From assembly GCA_021409285.1 (NCBI GenBank), contig JAGFND010000009.1, forward strand, positions 1-38,580: a stretch of 38,580 nt of DNA, given 5' to 3'. The stretch comes from Candidatus Methanoperedens sp. (GTDB taxonomy: Archaea > Halobacteriota > Methanosarcinia > Methanosarcinales > Methanoperedenaceae). Shown piece by piece: positions 5,470-12,280 of the stretch. How positions within the stretch are numbered: position 1 is the stretch's first letter; each line of letters opens with the position of its first letter. Position numbers and translations under genes: made by a program. The notes below the pieces were generated by a model. The model did not search any database and was not told where the DNA came from. It worked only from the letters and a program-made list of their open reading frames with translations.

Positions 5470-6084
5470 TCAAGTTTGTCTGGATAGTAAATTAAAATTG
5501 TGGTGCTGGTTGTTGAGGCAAAGCAATTTATAAAGCAGTCGCATCGCTTCTTGCTCTCTCGGACCTCCACATCTCCTGACTATGGTATTATGATATTTGA
5601 TGAGATCCAGATATTTTTCTTCCTTTGATATTACATATCTTGTGGCATGTATCAGAGCCTCAATGACAGCATTGAATCCGCGGTTTACAGGTTTTATTTT
5701 TCTATTGTTTATTTTGCCTTTGACTGGCATAAGCTCAACAACCGAAATAACTTCGCCTTTTATGCATCTGCAGTCAAAAACTATCCATCCACATGAGCAT
5801 CTAAGAACAGGAAAATTCTCAATGAATTCAAACTTCTCTGATCCAATATCGGAAAGTGCAGACTGCACGAATATGACTGGATCATCGACCATGTTGGCTG
5901 CAGCAACAGGATAGCCAATTATATTATCAAGTGTCTTTGAGTTGTATATCCTCGCAAAAAATCTGCCGTCTTTTCTATGCAGCCCGATCGGTGCGGCATT
6001 GGGAACGCCTTCGGACGATATGGTCGTAAAGATCACTTCCGATATCCCTTCCTGTATCCCAAAATCATTGATGTCTATCAGAAT
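5470..6084 (-). CDS. DUF447 family protein (FMN-binding split-barrel like)
   Basis: The conserved core is clear: GVPNAAPIG, then a basic segment, NMVDDPVIFVQSAL and the CG/C-rich middle (RCSCGWIVFDCRC). From the first canonical start (GTG at 6036) the protein has 188 residues, but the frame stays open upstream through residues resembling the family N terminus (DFGIQEGISEV). No ATG, GTG or TTG lies between the upstream stop and 6036. A ribosome site GAGGGGATGA ends just before ATT (6084), CTG (6081) and ATA (6078), so I place the start here at a non-standard codon, overlapping the end of the CitG-like gene. As I recall, DUF447 and CitG-like genes occur together near methanopterin-linked C1 genes; exact function unknown. 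Confidence 0.72.
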   Translation of the reverse strand: MLIDINDFGIQEGISEVIFTTISSEGVPNAAPIGLHRKDGRFFARIYNSKTLDNIIGYPVAAANMVDDPVIFVQSALSDIGSEKFEFIENFPVLRCSCGWIVFDCRCIKGEVISVVELMPVKGKINNRKIKPVNRGFNAVIEALIHATRYVISKEEKYLDLIKYHNTIVRRCGGPREQEAMRLLYKLLCLNNQHHNFNLLSRQT

Positions 6085-6941
6085 CTCATCCCCTCAAAAA
6101 GTGAAACGAACAATCCTGCGATAATTATGTCAGCCGTTGAACCAGGATTAACACCCTCTTTTAGTAATTTCTCATCAAATAAACATATTTCGTCCCTGAC
6201 ATCATCAATATCTCCTTTCTCAAGTATTTTTTTTGCCATCAAAGAAACTTCTTCCGCTTTCTTTCTGTCAAATTTTGTCTGAATGAAGGTATCTTTATTT
6301 TGTGATAAAAGCTCCATGAATGTTAGAACGACCGCATCATTGATACAATATTTTCTGATCTTATTCTGGATGGAAATAGCACAATCAAATGTCTTCTCAA
6401 AGCCATTAATCCACTCAGCGGCAATAATGTCGTAGCTGCCTGAGATCTCCATCATCTTAAAAAGGGTCAATCGATGTGCCTCTATTTTCTTGATCGAGCT
6501 CTGGTCATTAAGATCAAGATCCGTCACTTGTTTAACTTTCACTTTTGCCTCAGAGAACGCCCTGAAAAATTCAATTGCATCTTCCGATGACGTTTCTCTG
6601 ACTATTTTTTTAACCTGGGATAGTAAGCAAGTTCTGTCCTCGCATTTTCCTGCTGCCATCACAAGAGGGACAAGCAGGATAAAGGCGCCAAAATGAGTAT
6701 TTCCCCCTTTTTGCCATTTGCTGCTTTCCAATACGGAGCCCCGGATGAGTGCGCCAACTCCTGACCCTGAACCTGCCGCTTTCTCCATGACAGGATAAAC
6801 TCCCACAGCACTTGCCAGGAAATGCTCAAAACGCGTACCTGAGTAATTATGGTCGCGGTCGATATTGCCCGGCTTTGGTGTAGCTGAAACCTCAAGGATC
6901 ATGGCAAGCTGCGCGCACCGGGCGATGTTGGAAGAGTCCAT
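6078..6941 (-). CDS. CitG-like triphosphoribosyl-dephospho-CoA synthase family protein
   Basis: This 287-residue protein carries the CitG/MdcB family signatures: ATPKPGNIDR near residue 20, GGNTHFGAF near 80-90, and NPGSTADI near the C terminus. CitG makes a phosphoribosyl-dephospho-CoA prosthetic group for citrate lyase, but no citrate or malonate lyase is in view. In methanogens and methanopterin-using methylotrophs such proteins sit with DUF447 and are suspected of a role in cofactor biosynthesis; that is family context, not shown here. Its stop overlaps the proposed DUF447 start. A TATA-like element (GGTATATTTGTATA on the minus strand, 6979-6992) lies about 40 bases upstream of the ATG. 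Confidence 0.8.
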   Translation of the reverse strand: MDSSNIARCAQLAMILEVSATPKPGNIDRDHNYSGTRFEHFLASAVGVYPVMEKAAGSGSGVGALIRGSVLESSKWQKGGNTHFGAFILLVPLVMAAGKCEDRTCLLSQVKKIVRETSSEDAIEFFRAFSEAKVKVKQVTDLDLNDQSSIKKIEAHRLTLFKMMEISGSYDIIAAEWINGFEKTFDCAISIQNKIRKYCINDAVVLTFMELLSQNKDTFIQTKFDRKKAEEVSLMAKKILEKGDIDDVRDEICLFDEKLLKEGVNPGSTADIIIAGLFVSLFEGMRF

Positions 6942-6977
6942 TAAACTGATATTCTTTTAAGTTAAGATAAATTCAGG

Positions 6978-7061
6978 CTATACAAATATACCCTTTAAAA
7001 TAGATGATGGGAATGCAGCATGACATTTAGGAATGGTGGTGGTATAAAAAAGTTGGATCAT
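6978..7061 (-). CDS. Possible 27-residue small ORF with strong ribosome site
   Basis: This short frame encodes MIQLFYTTTIPKCHAAFPSS and seven more residues. It deserves mention because GGGAGG lies exactly 8 bases before its ATG, and a TATA-like element (7095-7104) lies at the right distance before that. A 9-base inverted repeat (7058-7066 with 7015-7023) would pair its start codon with a site inside the ORF. It lies directly upstream of the CitG-like gene and could be a leader peptide. There is no recognised homologue and the length is too short for composition tests. Confidence 0.35.
   Translation of the reverse strand: MIQLFYTTTIPKCHAAFPSSILKGIFV
6979..6992 (-). promoter_or_regulatory. TATA-like promoter element of the citG-DUF447 unit
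   Basis: On the minus strand the sequence reads GGTATATTTGTATA, preceded by TTTTAAAG. It is placed to start transcription about 10-20 bases before the CitG-like start at 6941. It overlaps the end of the small ORF at 6978-7061, so the two arrangements may be alternatives. Judged by eye only. Confidence 0.4.
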
Positions 7062-7094
7062 GCTGCCTTCCTCCCTTTAATGTTACTTTCTTAG

Positions 7095-7131
7095 AGTATA
7101 AATAGGACAGTCCATTCTCAAATTTGAGAAT
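7095..7131. promoter_or_regulatory. TATA element next to a perfect 18-base palindrome (candidate operator)
   Basis: ATTCTCAAATTTGAGAAT at 7114-7131 is a perfect palindrome. It lies 10 bases after the stop of the winged-helix regulator gene and just upstream of a TATA-like element (7095-7104, usable on either strand; leftward it would serve the small ORF and the CitG-like gene). A near copy lies at 7823-7841. It is not followed by a T-run, so an operator is more likely than a terminator. Confidence 0.5.
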
Positions 7132-7141
7132 AATTCATTTA

Positions 7142-7510
7142 TTATGTGATTCCATTATTGGGATGTGCAAATCTTTTCCATAACCTTATTATCTTATCGG
7201 AATGGTCTTCCTTCTTAAAGTCCACTGAGAGCAAGCCGTTATGAATACGTACTGTGGCCTCACGGATCGCGCAGCGGTAATATTTCTCCTCATTACCTGA
7301 AAAATTGATAATGGTTTTAACATGTTGTATCAGACCCGTGCTCTCCATAAGCTTAATTTTTCTATATACTGTTGCAAGAGGTATGCCAAGCTCCTGGCTC
7401 AATTGAGCGGCCGAACATTCCTTTATGGATGTAAGAGATAATATCTTCCGAGAGTACTTGTTTGCAAGCAACTCAAAGGCGATCTCTTCATCGCCGGGAT
7501 CTGAGTTCAT
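7142..7510 (-). CDS. Winged helix-turn-helix transcription regulator (ArsR-like)
   Basis: This 122-residue protein has one DNA-binding domain: residues about 12-70 form the winged helix with recognition helix around IPLATVYRKIKLMESTGLI, followed by a short beta wing (VKTIINFSGNEEKYYRC). The C-terminal 40 residues have no recognisable sensor domain, though one cysteine (in YYRCAI) is present. It starts 2 bases after the stop of the upstream membrane-protein gene, so both are one transcription unit. Similar palindromic sites before that unit (7823-7841) and after this gene (7114-7131) suggest that the protein binds them, for autoregulation and for the CitG-like unit; that is inference. Confidence 0.75.
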   Translation of the reverse strand: MNSDPGDEEIAFELLANKYSRKILSLTSIKECSAAQLSQELGIPLATVYRKIKLMESTGLIQHVKTIINFSGNEEKYYRCAIREATVRIHNGLLSVDFKKEDHSDKIIRLWKRFAHPNNGIT

Positions 7511-7512
7511 TA

Positions 7513-7776
7513 TTAGCTTTTTCTTATTGCAATTATTAATGCAATTAGCCCCAGTATATCAAAAACATTTGCAAGCAATTTGTCCATTCGCATATCATCG
7601 ACATAATAAATGGTTGAGAATAGATTTCCAATCGTTATCAGGGTAAATCCTGTAGTAAGATAAAACATATCAGAAGTCCTTGTTTTCAAAAACGCTCGCA
7701 TGGCAATGATAATCAAGATAAGACCTACGAAAAAACGAGCCGCACCAATAATATTATCTATCAGGTGTAGAGCCAT
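7513..7776 (-). CDS. Small membrane protein in operon with the regulator
   Basis: An 87-residue protein with three hydrophobic segments (about 8-27, 36-54 and 68-84), so probably an integral membrane protein. I chose the ATG at 7776 (MALHLIDN): the frame is open up to 7830, but that stretch overlaps the imperfect palindrome at 7823-7841 and lies where transcription should begin. An alternative ATG is at 7824. I do not recognise the family. Its pairing with a winged-helix regulator suggests a membrane-linked sensing or transport accessory role, but nothing in the sequence proves it. Confidence 0.65.
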   Translation of the reverse strand: MALHLIDNIIGAARFFVGLILIIIAMRAFLKTRTSDMFYLTTGFTLITIGNLFSTIYYVDDMRMDKLLANVFDILGLIALIIAIRKS

Positions 7777-7822
7777 GATTATTCTGAATATCAATTGTTG
7801 CTTCAAGATAATAATTTCTGTC

Positions 7823-7841
7823 ATTATCAATTTCTGAGAAT
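7823..7841 (-). promoter_or_regulatory. Imperfect palindrome at the regulator operon promoter
   Basis: On the minus strand this reads ATTCTCA, five bases, TGATAAT: the same left half-site as the perfect palindrome at 7114-7131 and a right half-site with one mismatch. An AT-rich TATA-like stretch (about 7848-7860) lies just upstream. The position, at the predicted transcription start of the membrane protein/regulator unit, suits repression. Confidence 0.5.
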
Positions 7842-7870
7842 GGATAATATCATTTATTATTCAAGAACAC

Positions 7871-7886
7871 GGTAAAAAATAAATAT
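7871..7886 (+). promoter_or_regulatory. TATA-like element before the moxR operon
   Basis: GTAAAAAATAAATATC resembles an archaeal TATA box and lies about 45 bases before the GTG start of moxR, in the gap between the divergent transcription units. Judged by eye. Confidence 0.35.
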
Positions 7887-7926
7887 CTGGCAAGAAACAA
7901 CGGGATACTCGAAGAGACTTATCAAG

Positions 7927-8922
7927 GTGATTAAGACGAACGAAGACATACAAACGCTCAACAAACAGGCACTCCTGTATTCAAAAGACCTCGAATCAAT
8001 AATGACCGAAATGCACAGGACTATAATCGGCCAGGAAAATGTGCTTGAGAAACTCATTCTTGCACTCGTGGCTGACGGCCACGTACTTCTTGAGGGAATG
8101 CCGGGCCTTGCAAAGACCCTGATGATAAAGACCCTTTCCGATACAATAGATGCCTCATTCAAACGGATACAATTCACGCCTGACCTGCTTCCTGCCGATA
8201 TTACTGGGACAAGGATATACAACCAGCATACCGGTCAATTTTCAACAAAAAAGGGTCCAATCTTTGCCAGTTTCATCCTTGCCGATGAGATTAACAGGGC
8301 ACCTCCGAAAGTCCAGAGCGCGCTTCTTGAGGCTATGCAGGAGCGGCAGGTTACAATTTCAGATGAAAGTCACACTCTTCAAAAGCCATTCCTTGTAATG
8401 GCCACACAGAATCCGATAGAAACACAGGGAACATACGAGCTTCCTGAAGCCCAGGTCGATCGTTTCATGTTCAAGATATTGCTTGATTATCCCACTCAGA
8501 AGCAGGAGCAGGAGATTATCAATATGATAGCCGGGACAGGTATTCCGGATATTAGAAAAATGATTTCACCTGCAAAGATATTGGATATCCAGAATTTCAA
8601 TCACCTCATATACATGGATGAAAAAATAGTAAAATATATTACCGATATTGTCCAGGCAACAAGGGAACCTGGATCATACGGTCTTGATGTCAGCGATTTC
8701 ATAGAATATGGTGCCTCTCCGAGGGCTTCTATATACCTTGCTCTTGGAGGCAAAGCAAGCGCGCTTCTTGCGGGAAGAGGATACATGATCCCGGAGGACA
8801 TAAAAAGGATCTCAAAGGATGTCCTGAGGCACCGCATCATCCTTACCTATGAAGCTCTTGCCGAGGAAGTGACAACGGATAAAATTATAGGTTCAATTCT
8901 TAACAAAGTCCCAGTACCATAG
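7927..8922 (+). CDS. MoxR family AAA+ ATPase
   Basis: This 331-residue ATPase has Walker A GMPGLAKT (57-64), Walker B FILADE (D120, E121) followed by the family signature INRAPPKVQSALLEAMQE, sensor 1 MATQNPIE, and a C-terminal lid domain. MoxR proteins act as chaperones that assemble or activate partner proteins carrying VWA domains, often with metal ions. The three genes downstream (DUF58, VWA, BatD-like) are the usual partners. The start is GTG at 7927; no strong ribosome site is visible, which fits a leaderless or short-leader transcript. The gene is 13 bases from the next one and is the first of the operon. Confidence 0.92.
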   Translation: MIKTNEDIQTLNKQALLYSKDLESIMTEMHRTIIGQENVLEKLILALVADGHVLLEGMPGLAKTLMIKTLSDTIDASFKRIQFTPDLLPADITGTRIYNQHTGQFSTKKGPIFASFILADEINRAPPKVQSALLEAMQERQVTISDESHTLQKPFLVMATQNPIETQGTYELPEAQVDRFMFKILLDYPTQKQEQEIINMIAGTGIPDIRKMISPAKILDIQNFNHLIYMDEKIVKYITDIVQATREPGSYGLDVSDFIEYGASPRASIYLALGGKASALLAGRGYMIPEDIKRISKDVLRHRIILTYEALAEEVTTDKIIGSILNKVPVP

Positions 8923-8935
8923 CGGGGTGAGATAA

Positions 8936-9823
8936 TTGGCTCGTCCAGATACGAAAGAAATTATCGCAAAAGTCAGGCAGATAGATATAACGACAAAACA
9001 CCCTGTCGAGGGAATTATAAGCGGCGCTTACCTATCAGCTTTCAAGGGCATGGGTATTGATTTCTCGGAAGTGCGTGAATACCAGATCGGTGATGACCCG
9101 AGAACCATCGACTGGAACGTTACTGCGCGAATGAACCATCCTTTCGTGAAAGAATTCATCGAAGAGCGCGACCTTACCGTGATGATAGTCTTCGATATTT
9201 CACGTTCTTCGGAGTTCGGATCCGTCCGTTCGATAAAAAAAGATATCGGGATAGAGTTGTGTGCTTCGCTTGCCATGTCCGCGATGAGAAACAATGACAA
9301 GGTCGGCCTTATGCTTACAACGGATATGGTGGAAAAATATCTTCCTCCGGTGAAAGGGAAAAAGCATGTGTTCAGGATTATAAGAGAGACCATCTTCCAC
9401 GAACCTGCACATAATAATACGGATCTTTCAGTCCCGCTTATCAGGCTCTCAAGGATATTAAAGAAGAAAAGCGTGATATTTATAATCTCTGATTTCCAGG
9501 TTGAACCTGATTCAATCAAAAAACCGCTTCAGGTACTAAAATGCAGGCATGACATCATTTGTATAAGGCTATGGGACGTCCGGGAACATCAGATCCCCGA
9601 TATCGGATTAATTGAGCTTGAAGATGAAGAAACTGGAGAACAGATACTTGTAGATACAGGAGATATTGAATTCAGGAAAAAATATTCCGAATCGGTTGGA
9701 TTGAGAATTTGGAAATTATCAGAGATTATGAATCGCCTCGAATTAGATCTTATAGATATTTCAACAGTGCAGGACTGGGTGCAGCCTGTCTTAAAATTCT
9801 TCAATATGAGGGTGAAAAGATGA
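8936..9823 (+). CDS. DUF58 protein of the MoxR operon
   Basis: This 295-residue protein has the DUF58 signature YQIGDDPRTIDWNVTARM (about 52-70) followed by FVKEF.EERDLTVMIVFDISRSSEFG, a degenerate VWA-like fold with DISRS in the place of the metal site. It has no membrane segment, so it is probably cytoplasmic or peripheral. Start codon TTG at 8936 is preceded by GGGGTGA at the right distance. The stop overlaps the ATG of the VWA gene (ATGA), showing coupled translation. Partner of MoxR and of the membrane VWA protein; exact role unknown. Confidence 0.88.
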   Translation: MARPDTKEIIAKVRQIDITTKHPVEGIISGAYLSAFKGMGIDFSEVREYQIGDDPRTIDWNVTARMNHPFVKEFIEERDLTVMIVFDISRSSEFGSVRSIKKDIGIELCASLAMSAMRNNDKVGLMLTTDMVEKYLPPVKGKKHVFRIIRETIFHEPAHNNTDLSVPLIRLSRILKKKSVIFIISDFQVEPDSIKKPLQVLKCRHDIICIRLWDVREHQIPDIGLIELEDEETGEQILVDTGDIEFRKKYSESVGLRIWKLSEIMNRLELDLIDISTVQDWVQPVLKFFNMRVKR

Positions 9824-10761
9824 ATTTTGGGGATCCGGTGTGGTTTTTAGCACTTCTGCTGCTTCCTTTGATATGGTATTTTTACATACGCTCGATTAAA
9901 AAGAAAAAGGCTGCCGCTATTAAATTCAGCAACATTTCTCTCATCAAGGAAGCAGGTGCCGGAATATCAAAAGCAAAAGAAGTGCTCTTTTATATGAATA
10001 TCCTATTAATATCCTTGCTGATCACGGCCCTTGCCGATCCGCATATTCCGCTGACGCAAACAAAAGAAGGCGTTAATGTGGTGGTTGTGATGGATGTTTC
10101 AGGAAGTATGGCAGCGACTGATTATAAACCCACAAGGCTTGAGGCTGCCAGGGAAAGCGCAAAGATACTTATCAACGGGCTCAATATGAAGGACAATGCA
10201 GGAGTCGTTATTTTCTCAAGCGGCGCAACAACCTCCGCATATCTTTCGCCTTTTAAGGATAAGGTGCTTGAGAAACTTTCTGCCATTAAACAGACAGAAG
10301 GTGAAACAGCTATCGGTGACGGCCTTGCTCTTGCAGTGGATATGGCAACATCTGTTCCCAATAAGAAAAAAGTTATAATTCTTATGAGCGACGGTGTGAA
10401 CAATGCCGGGGTAATCAGTCCTGATGATGCTATTCGTTTTGCAAAAACGAACAATATTCAGGTATATACTATCGGAATTGGTTCAAATGAAAAAGTAATT
10501 CTCGGATACGACTGGTTCGGGCGCCCACAGTACGCTGATTTGGATGAAGCGACATTGCAGAAGATAGCAGAAGTAACGAATGGTGAATATTATAAATCGG
10601 TAGATAGTAAAACGCTTGAGCATATCTATAGTGCACTGCCAGAAAAGATCGAGCGAGAGCCCGAGGATTCAAGCATAAAAGACTGGGTGATCATGGCCGC
10701 AATAGGTGTTTTGCTGGCAGAATTGTATCTGAGATTCGGAAGATACAGGATATTGCCATGA
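9820..10761 (+). CDS. BatA-like VWA-domain membrane protein
   Basis: From the ATG at 9820 (overlapping the DUF58 stop) the protein has 313 residues. There are two N-terminal membrane segments (about 7-23 and 55-72), a VWA domain with a complete metal-ion-dependent adhesion site (D92-x-S94-x-S96 in VVVMDVSGSMAAT, a later threonine near GETAIGDG, and MSDGVNN), and a last membrane segment near the C terminus (WVIMAAIGVLLAELYL). This is the layout of BatA in Bacteroides aerotolerance operons. The VWA domain is probably exposed on one side of the membrane to bind a partner such as the BatD-like protein encoded next. An upstream in-frame start at 9709 lies inside DUF58 and is rejected. Confidence 0.9.
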   Translation: MNFGDPVWFLALLLLPLIWYFYIRSIKKKKAAAIKFSNISLIKEAGAGISKAKEVLFYMNILLISLLITALADPHIPLTQTKEGVNVVVVMDVSGSMAATDYKPTRLEAARESAKILINGLNMKDNAGVVIFSSGATTSAYLSPFKDKVLEKLSAIKQTEGETAIGDGLALAVDMATSVPNKKKVIILMSDGVNNAGVISPDDAIRFAKTNNIQVYTIGIGSNEKVILGYDWFGRPQYADLDEATLQKIAEVTNGEYYKSVDSKTLEHIYSALPEKIEREPEDSSIKDWVIMAAIGVLLAELYLRFGRYRILP

Positions 10762-10771
10762 AGGTGAGATC

Positions 10772-12280
10772 ATGAAACCTGATTTAAGAATAATATGCGT
10801 GACTATTTGCATCATGCTGCTATTTTCATGTACGGCCTCTGCAAGTCAATTGTCCGTCAAAAAAGAAGTCCAGAACACTGACATAAAAACCGGGGACAGC
10901 GTAAGCATTTCACTCGAATTTGAAAATCCTTTCAATAAAACAATACCTGTTACAATACAGGATAATAATGTCATAGGGAGCAACGGCCTTGAGATACAGT
11001 GCTATGAATATTCCATTCCAGATAAACCGCTAACGAGCCTTGGGTACGATTTTTCTATTCAGGCTTTTTCGCCGGGTGAATTTACGCTGGATCCTGCCAC
11101 AATAACCTATACAAATCCGGAAACTGGAAAACAGGAATCTGTCAGATCAGAACAATTAAAAATTTCGATAAAACAGGGCTCAAGTGCAGGCCAGCAGCAG
11201 GGGGTCACAAAGATATACAACTGCGGCGGTGTCAGTATGAGGAGCACATCATATTCATCAAGTGGTTCAACTTCCATATCGATAAGCAGCGGCAGCCAGC
11301 AGGCCCAGCAAAGTCAACAGAACCCTGATAATGTCCAGCAGACCGCCCAGGATATGCAGAACCTCAAAGATGAAATGAACCGCCAGCAGCAGGACTTCCA
11401 GGAGATGCAAAACGAACTGAAAAGCAGGATTGAGAATACTACCGATTTCCGGAAGATGAAGCAGGAACTCGAAAAAAATGGTTATTCACAGACAGAAAAT
11501 AACCTTAAGCCAGAAAGCAATGATACTGGAGATTTTGAATACCGCTTCATGAAAAATAACGAGAGCGCAGACATCAATGGCAGGATGAGTGTCGGAAAAA
11601 TGGAATCGATAAATGAAAGCAGTACTGAAGACTTGAAAAGGATACAGGAATTTATCGAGAACAACGAAACATTCCAGAAAATGCAAAAAACCCTTTCGGA
11701 TAAAGGTTTCAATCTGACAGATAAAAAGATAGATCTTGGTTCCAATATCAGCCGGTTTGAATATACATACGGTGATACGAATAGTAGGAACGCTTCCATA
11801 TCCGGAAATGTGACCGGTACAGGTGAGATAAAGGACATATTAAAAAAAGAGCCACCAGTGATTTTCCCATATTGGATATCTGTTCTTCTTTTAATCCCGC
11901 TGATCGGGTTTTATCTTTATAAAAAATATAACTATAAAGCTATAATCCCTCCCGCAGCGCCTCAAGTGACCTTTGATTATAAGAAAGAAGCGCTTTTGCA
12001 ACTTGAAAATGCAATTGGAACATTTAAAAACGGTAAGCAGCGGGAGGCATATACTGGAGTTTCAGCCGCATTGAGGCTTTATTTTAGAGGAACGATTGGA
12101 ATTACAGAGCTTACAAGTGAGGAGTTTTTAAGAATTCTAAAGGGATCAAAAGATGATGCCTGTATCGAGAATGTGAAACATTGTTTTTTGCTGTGCGACC
12201 TTGTTAAATTCGCAAAATATGAGCCCAATAAGGCAGATTTCGATGAGGCGGTCGAAGATGCAAGAAAGATAATTATCTGA
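10772..12280 (+). CDS. BatD-like membrane protein with an internal duplication
   Basis: This 502-residue protein starts with a signal segment (about 6-24, with LFSC resembling a lipobox around C20), then a beta-rich domain (about 26-135) like the first Ig-like domain of BatD, a Ser/Gln-rich linker (136-215), two copies of a ~55-residue unit (226-280 and 301-356), a membrane segment (367-383) and a cytoplasmic tail of about 120 residues. The repeat units share FxKMxxxL, xxGxxxT, FEY and IxGxx at matching positions. The tail (REAYTGVSAALRLYF, ELTSEEFLR) resembles the helical cytoplasmic domain of BatD and DUF4129 proteins. The order moxR-DUF58-batA-batD suggests a membrane complex remodelled by MoxR. 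No second VWA protein or TPR BatC/BatE gene follows. Confidence 0.75.
   Translation: MKPDLRIICVTICIMLLFSCTASASQLSVKKEVQNTDIKTGDSVSISLEFENPFNKTIPVTIQDNNVIGSNGLEIQCYEYSIPDKPLTSLGYDFSIQAFSPGEFTLDPATITYTNPETGKQESVRSEQLKISIKQGSSAGQQQGVTKIYNCGGVSMRSTSYSSSGSTSISISSGSQQAQQSQQNPDNVQQTAQDMQNLKDEMNRQQQDFQEMQNELKSRIENTTDFRKMKQELEKNGYSQTENNLKPESNDTGDFEYRFMKNNESADINGRMSVGKMESINESSTEDLKRIQEFIENNETFQKMQKTLSDKGFNLTDKKIDLGSNISRFEYTYGDTNSRNASISGNVTGTGEIKDILKKEPPVIFPYWISVLLLIPLIGFYLYKKYNYKAIIPPAAPQVTFDYKKEALLQLENAIGTFKNGKQREAYTGVSAALRLYFRGTIGITELTSEEFLRILKGSKDDACIENVKHCFLLCDLVKFAKYEPNKADFDEAVEDARKIII

Follow-up and report, generated by a model that had tools for sequence, protein, structure and literature searches.

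Comparison of a stretch of 38,580 nucleotides (hereafter the window) with related genomes indicates that an ArsR-type regulator of Candidatus Methanoperedens sp. probably controls both its own operon and a small RNA of ~90 nt with a C-rich loop, via two operators. The sites, their spacing, the stem of the RNA and the linkage of these elements all emerge from this comparison. On its minus strand the window encodes a DUF7521 protein (7776–7513) and the regulator (7510–7142), followed by a gap, a CitG-like gene (6941–6078) and DUF447. Within the gap, a putative second promoter composed of operator 2 and a TATA box leads into a stem-loop of ~90 nt, located between the palindrome and CitG. The features are as follows:

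7823–7841, minus strand: putative operator 1, ATTCTCA-N5-TGATAAT, at the promoter of the DUF7521-regulator operon
7806–7813, minus strand: TATA-like box TATTATCT, 9 bp after operator 1
7513–7776, minus strand: small DUF7521 protein, first gene of the operon (PF24365, E=9.8e-7, 29.4 bits, cut-off 27)
7142–7510, minus strand: winged-helix regulator of 122 aa, ArsR-type / HTH_20, second gene of the two-gene operon
7114–7131, minus strand: putative operator 2, ATTCTCAAATTTGAGAAT, a perfect 18-bp palindrome upstream of the small RNA
7097–7104, minus strand: TATA box TATTTATA, 9 bp after operator 2
6995–7081, minus strand: predicted small structured RNA of class I (covariance models R1/R2, covariation)
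7058–7071, minus strand: 5' arm of the stem, GGAAGGCAGCATGA
7035–7051, minus strand: loop and proposed pairing segment (oligo-U at 7051–7046, ACCACCACC at 7043–7035)
7010–7024, minus strand: 3' arm of the stem, GTCATGCTGCATTCC
6963–6974, minus strand: TATA-like box GAATTTATCTTA of CitG, 33 nt before the CitG ATG
6078–6941, minus strand: CitG-like gene (PF01874)

An earlier note had reported a perfect 18-bp palindrome at 7114–7131 and a near copy at 7823–7841, and both were confirmed. They differ in their spacers (4 versus 5 bp), and one half-site of the near copy, which reads ATTCTCA-GAAAT-TGATAAT on the minus strand, carries one mismatch. ATTCTCAAATTTGAGAAT is the window's sole perfect palindrome of at least 16 bp. 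Taken alone, the 18-bp palindrome has no significance: perfect palindromes of at least 18 bp are present in 17 of 60 dinucleotide shuffles of the window, and the case for the sites therefore rests on comparison. Loose dyad matches with up to three mismatches are in slight excess in the window (43 versus 31.5 expected). The relaxed pattern ATTCTCA-N4/5-TGAKAAT occurs at three places in the 2.78-Mb genome, two of which are the window's own sites, and the strict pattern ATTCTCA-N4/5-TGAGAAT at ten places in the 31 genomes of the genus, as compared to none for the reversed-pattern control. When operator and TATA box were combined (TTCTCA-N4/5-TGAKAAY-N7/11-TTTAT), eight places were found in these 31 genomes and none with the control. 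Four of the eight are promoters of class I RNAs (G000, G019, G020:C96, G005:C103) and one lies on the opposite strand at a class I promoter (G020:C22). The others precede another hairpin (G018:C95:3558), a small gene without a class I match (G012:C40) and, as judged by eye, a glycosyltransferase-like ORF (G020:C101). At the G018 place (L283, G018:C95:3558–3591) the same operator-TATA arrangement is followed by a hairpin GAGGAGCCA..TGGCTCCTC that does not contain the ACCACCACC motif.

The palindrome at 7114–7131 starts 10 bp past the stop codon of the regulator gene and would fold as RNA at about -7 kcal/mol, as might be expected if it were the transcription terminator hairpin of this gene and nothing more. 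However, a U-run is absent after the palindrome, a like dyad stands before DUF7521, the spacing to the TATA box is fixed, and at L115 a like dyad lies at the start rather than the end of the flanking ORF. We regard a role as terminator only as hardly credible, and rejected this reading.

The regulator matches PF12840 (HTH_20) with E=1.3e-8 and 35.2 bits (cut-off 27). Its AlphaFold model (pLDDT 79) predicts the winged helix-turn-helix fold of ArsR-type / HTH_20 regulators, and the best Foldseek matches are archaeal ArsR-type structures. The top match in the PDB is the heat shock regulator of Pyrococcus furiosus (2p4w, E=4.9e-6), known as Phr; identity amounts to 20%, and 2p4w differs by its longer chain of ~198 residues and its heat-shock role. 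The DUF7521 protein, by eye probably a membrane protein, adjoins the regulator in same-genus relatives. Searching 60 related genomes with the regulator protein yielded 34 strong matches (E<1e-30). They come from 19 genomes, with up to four in each, and every one of these genomes belongs to the genus. The named records among its closest relatives (25 loci) are Candidatus Methanoperedens or archaea assigned at the level of Methanosarcinales. Outside the genus DUF7521 is present, but no relative of the regulator was found beside it (17 loci, ~1.5 kb on each side). Divergent from the regulator operon, the window holds a MoxR-DUF58-vWA-BatD-like cluster (7927–12280), whose gene order is kept in G019, G020 and G021; the names DUF58, vWA and BatD are those we presume for genes beside MoxR.

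In same-genus relatives, the dyad TTCTCA-N4/5-TGAGAA flanks the DUF7521-winged-helix operon and stands ~9 bp before the TATA box at the key promoters. The DUF7521-regulator pair together with the divergent MoxR cluster is kept in G020, G021 and G019; dyads flank the operon in G000, G020 and G019, and G021 has one upstream only. Operator 1 is found at the equivalent place in L051, L052 and L053 and is degenerate in L050, and TATTATAT occupies the operator-1 TATA spacing in L050, L051 and L053. The spacing between operator 2 and its TATA box is the same in the latter three loci and in L115, L147 and L148. In L052 (G021:C9) the downstream operator and the RNA are absent right after the regulator, as if deleted, and the sequence past the regulator stop resembles the L051 sequence beyond the RNA.

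Across the regulator family, a dyad scoring at least 11/14 against ATTCTCA/TGAGAAT is present downstream of the regulator in 16 of 34 loci (shuffle mean ~9), while 18 stay below this score; 13 of the 34 reach p<0.05 against shuffles. The more distant L068 and L049 were scored as well and are left out of these counts. By eye, a TATA-like box follows ~9 bp later at 11 of the 16 dyad loci. At L035, L036, L037 and L061, which precede CxxCH genes, the TATA box lies ~23 bp and not 9 bp from the dyad, and the L039 dyad has no TATA-like box as judged by eye. The half-site also follows the recognition helix, with assignments made partly by eye: wherever a site was assigned to a regulator with an IP[LP]AT helix (17 cases), it is TTCTCA-like, whereas four loci with IP[SH]TT (L046, L047, L048, L066) have TTACCA-type dyads downstream in place of TTCTCA, three from the score search and that of L048 by eye. 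To seven further IPLAT regulators no site was assigned, and L044 (LTT helix) has a TTCTCA-like half-site upstream. The match is not absolute, because L068 and L049 pair TTCTCA sites with an STT helix. Protein alignment A4 comprises 18 sequences; L037 (stop in the chosen frame), L063, L040 and the minus-strand loci were left out, the window's own protein excepted. Thus, retention of the dyad upstream of the operon and downstream of the regulator, together with the different half-site in the regulator branch that has another recognition helix, lends good support to the earlier proposal that one protein has two targets, one being itself.

The earlier note had seen the second target in the CitG/DUF447 unit. 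Upstream of orthologues, the dyad was recovered at the DUF7521-regulator operon, but at none of 26 other CitG upstream regions of the genus did an operator rise above chance (350 bp each; best scores 8–10/14, random 8–12). One further fragment had no upstream sequence. CitG was detected in 27 of the 31 genus genomes, and by tblastn it lies beside the regulator in the window and in no fetched relative. It also has a TATA-like box of its own, a likely separate promoter: GAATTTATC is common to 5 of 27 CitG upstream regions (the window and 4 of the 26 relatives), 33–36 nt before the start. Control of CitG/DUF447 thus finds no support, and the CitG-like gene is probably not a conserved target. That 7114–7131 is nevertheless the operator of a CitG-DUF447 unit, the intervening stretch being an untranslated leader with a hairpin, would suit the position of CitG, which at 172 bp from the palindrome is the first long ORF to follow on that strand; against the findings just given, and with the RNA element occurring elsewhere beside other neighbours, we consider it unlikely. 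Transcription may nonetheless read through into CitG in this one genome.

The element behind operator 2 is best read instead as a small structured RNA (class I) not listed before, at a promoter with a regulator site. A hairpin behind the downstream dyad and TATA box is common to the window, L050, L051 and L053, and in L054 and L056 it is preceded by a small gene, of 44 and 78 codons respectively, that encodes a membrane-like segment. RNAalifold analysis of these six sequences gave 14 pairs, five of them with double-sided changes. Covariance model R1, derived from this six-sequence alignment with the operator left out, detected six further strong copies in the 31 genomes (E 3e-11 to 3e-6), and upstream of every one of them stand an operator-like dyad and a TATA box. 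Two of them (G026, G005:C20) lie divergently upstream of DUF7521-regulator operons, one (G020:C73) follows a small gene of the same kind as in L054 and L056, and three (G002, G018, G020:C22) have no regulator match on their contig. With model R2, 149 genomes of the order yielded 12 places in 9 of the 31 genus genomes, each behind an operator-like dyad; under stricter filters no class I match was obtained in the 118 other genomes of the order (genus tally 1/24). G015, with weak R2 matches only, is left out of this count, and weak R1/R2 matches (e.g. G015:C151, G015:C70, G020:C85) were by eye other hairpins and were not counted as class I. A simple stem pattern hit mostly unrelated places among the matches listed and recovered one true new copy (G002).

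Operator and RNA keep their distance: the distance from the start of the operator to the RNA model is 50 or 53 nt at 7 of the 12 loci and ~100 nt at two, and at three the operator stands before a co-oriented small gene. At 11 of the 12 loci the operator score reaches at least 11/14 within 420 bp (L055, 10/14), as compared to 8–10/14 within 120 bp at 13 class II loci taken as control. At L115 operator, TATA box and RNA are free-standing, the best regulator match in that genome having only E=2.7e-5. In L054 (6187–6318), L056, L146 and L078/L286 the operator is followed by a small protein that contains ..SPLW.K.. and a membrane-like segment; at three loci the class I RNA comes next, and the L054 copy of the protein has no Pfam match.

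In an alignment of all 12 sequences (A2), which was fitted to the structure and thereby favours the pairing result, 92.8% of cells are paired versus 36–61% in slid versions. Doubly changed cells number 18 versus 7.2 in shuffles. Neither the pairs with double-sided change (6 versus 3.6; 34 of 500 shuffles reach 6) nor the pair types (16 versus 16.2; 375 of 500 shuffles reach 16) stand out. The folding energy of the window RNA (z -1.3; 14 of 200 shuffles as good) makes thermodynamic stability alone weak evidence for an RNA. Rfam 15 returned four weak matches in window positions 6800–8000, all below the gathering score, and no match at 11 RNA loci.

A Shine-Dalgarno sequence and an ATG lie within the 5' arm in 10 of 12 copies. 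This GGAGG and ATG could start a short peptide, with the stem acting as a translational switch, and several of the predicted peptides begin with MT-x-F (in L056 and L034 the start was read by eye). However, L115 and L056 have no ATG, the frame between the arms is not preserved, the peptides are dissimilar, and class II hairpins have the same loop without such an ATG. Since the ATG is absent in 2 of 12 copies and frames shift between copies, a conserved ORF is unlikely and a translated leader improbable, though some short peptide may still be made from the 5'-arm ATG.

The loop with its oligo-U and ACCACCACC is conserved in class I and recurs in other hairpins with differing stems. Class II hairpins, such as those centred in L183 and L190 or located at G000:C178:17225–17295 and G000:C112:35904–35973, have a GUGGGCAG stem, double-sided change in 4 of 10 pairs and a loop U6..AUACCACCACC, and lie behind a TATA box and then a TTCGTATATATACGAA-type site; some occur in tandem, ~140 bp apart. 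At E<=0.001, class II model R3 matched all 31 genus genomes, with at least 3–22 places each among the matches listed. Elsewhere it matched 3 of 3 family mates and at least 24 of 115 further genomes, many of these outside matches being weak. The R3 counts derive from stricter filters and rough E-values, with ~25 matches checked by eye, and may include other classes. Class III hairpins were found at four loci (L186, L189 at G000:C74:305–315, L194 and L205). They read CCUUUGCAG..CUGCAAAGG (CCUCUGCAG in L194), their loop again contains ACCACCACC, and a AAAGTCTTTATA-like stretch is conserved upstream of them. In five genomes of 3.7–4.2 Mb from two genera of another family of the order (L259–L261, L263 and L264; L265–L269 were left out of this inspection), the match is a nearly invariant hairpin TTGTGAGCGGG..CCCGCTCACA that carries oligo-U and CCCCCCACUCCCC in its C-rich loop; this hairpin may be a known Methanosarcina-type sRNA.

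The multi-copy and tandem cases of class II, as well as the differing neighbourhoods of the module across genomes, would suit a downstream palindrome and hairpin that are ends or remnants of a mobile element (IS200/605-type hairpins, MITE) carrying the regulator pair. Yet operator, TATA box and stem keep a fixed spacing in 7 of 12 cases, stem pairs co-vary while copies have diverged, the loop is kept across classes with differing stems, and none of seven neighbouring proteins searched is a transposase, so we judge a mobile origin very improbable. We tentatively envisage, with some doubt, that these RNAs form a Methanoperedens hairpin network, in which one loop code (oligo-U and ACCACCACC) on different stems and operators would let several transcription factors act on one post-transcriptional switch: the DUF7521-linked ArsR-type regulator would govern class I, a TTCGTATATATACGAA-type site class II, and another conserved promoter class III. 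Such a network would be an archaeal counterpart of RyhB/IsrR, built independently, and class I would be wired to a regulator family that also stands before haem-motif genes of electron-transfer type.

Among 27 regulator-family loci, 10 have a gene with CxxCH motifs (1–17) close downstream. Paralogues stand before CxxCH genes at L035, L036, L042, L044, L046 and L060–L064, often with a leader of 150–200 nt or more. According to Pfam, the downstream gene encodes cytochrome c7 and MtrC-like domains in L042, has sub-threshold cytochrome matches only in L060, and in L061 encodes Ig-like domains with one CxxCH and no cytochrome family.

Mechanistically, we infer that a dimer of the 7142–7510 protein binds the TTCTCA/TGAGAA dyad ~9 bp upstream of two TATA boxes. 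Binding at the first, that of its own DUF7521-regulator operon, would bring about autoregulation; the second would drive a non-coding RNA gene of ~90 nt (~7080–6995, minus strand). At both promoters the operator precedes the TATA box, a position used by archaeal activators, which makes activation a little more likely than repression. Since regulator paralogues often precede CxxCH haem-motif genes, the input may be the redox or electron-acceptor state; DUF7521 as a possible membrane partner is a guess. Once transcribed, the RNA would fold into one long stem that exposes oligo-U and ACCACCACC in its loop, and an Sm-like protein may bind the oligo-U. The RNA would most likely act in trans; that its C-rich loop pairs with Shine-Dalgarno-like, G-rich stretches of mRNAs is a possibility we place slightly short of even. 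Duplexes between six loops and regulator start regions were no better than shuffles (p 0.53–0.94), and self-targeting of the regulator in the manner of sRNA162 was rejected on this ground. The extended target GGTGGTGGTAT was not enriched (58 places versus 65 for the reversed control TATGGTGGTGG, which is contaminated because it also fits loops), and by eye 17 of 30 inspected GGTGGTGGTAT places were hairpin loops themselves.

Little work has addressed gene regulation in anaerobic methane-oxidising archaea, and the module, a defined operator with a likely protein and an RNA output, is conserved and testable. As its regulator family borders haem-motif genes, the module offers a starting point for studying how these archaea may switch electron acceptors. 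In open-licence literature on small RNAs, regulators and multiheme proteins of Methanoperedens and on C-rich sRNAs of Methanosarcina, titles and opening lines of abstracts named no such RNAs. Archaeal intergenic RNAs are known from M. mazei with sRNA41 and sRNA154, which by their description mask ribosome binding sites (PMC5867862). Similar in layout is the M. mazei MM2440-MM2441-sRNA162 locus, in which a bicistron for a small unknown protein and an ArsR-family regulator is followed by an intergenic small RNA (PMC3510493). There, sRNA162 is described as having three stem-loops, a single-stranded linker masking the RBS of MM2441, and transcription that is constitutive in exponential growth. Set against this description, the class I RNA is a single stem-loop with a C-rich loop and an operator at its promoter, and its pairing with the start of the regulator gene is not above shuffles. 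In alphaproteobacterial alpha-r14 / cuckoo RNAs, a conserved C-rich motif of anti-Shine-Dalgarno type likewise stays unpaired while stems differ; their motif is CCUCCUCCC, with three hairpins, whereas the archaeal RNA has ACCACCACC and oligo-U on a single hairpin (PMC10746234). Staphylococcal IsrR also combines C-rich single-stranded regions with a promoter under a winged-helix regulator, in that case the metal-responsive repressor Fur, and its targets include respiratory genes (PMC9410917). By its published description IsrR has several hairpins and a Rho-independent terminator, and Fur takes the place of the ArsR-type regulator (PMC9410917). With cuckoo RNAs and IsrR, the class I RNA shares a conserved hairpin exposing a C-rich motif and, as judged by sequence and spacing, an apparent promoter of its own. 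The loop common to several RNA classes suggests an archaeal analogue of the C-rich-loop sRNAs.
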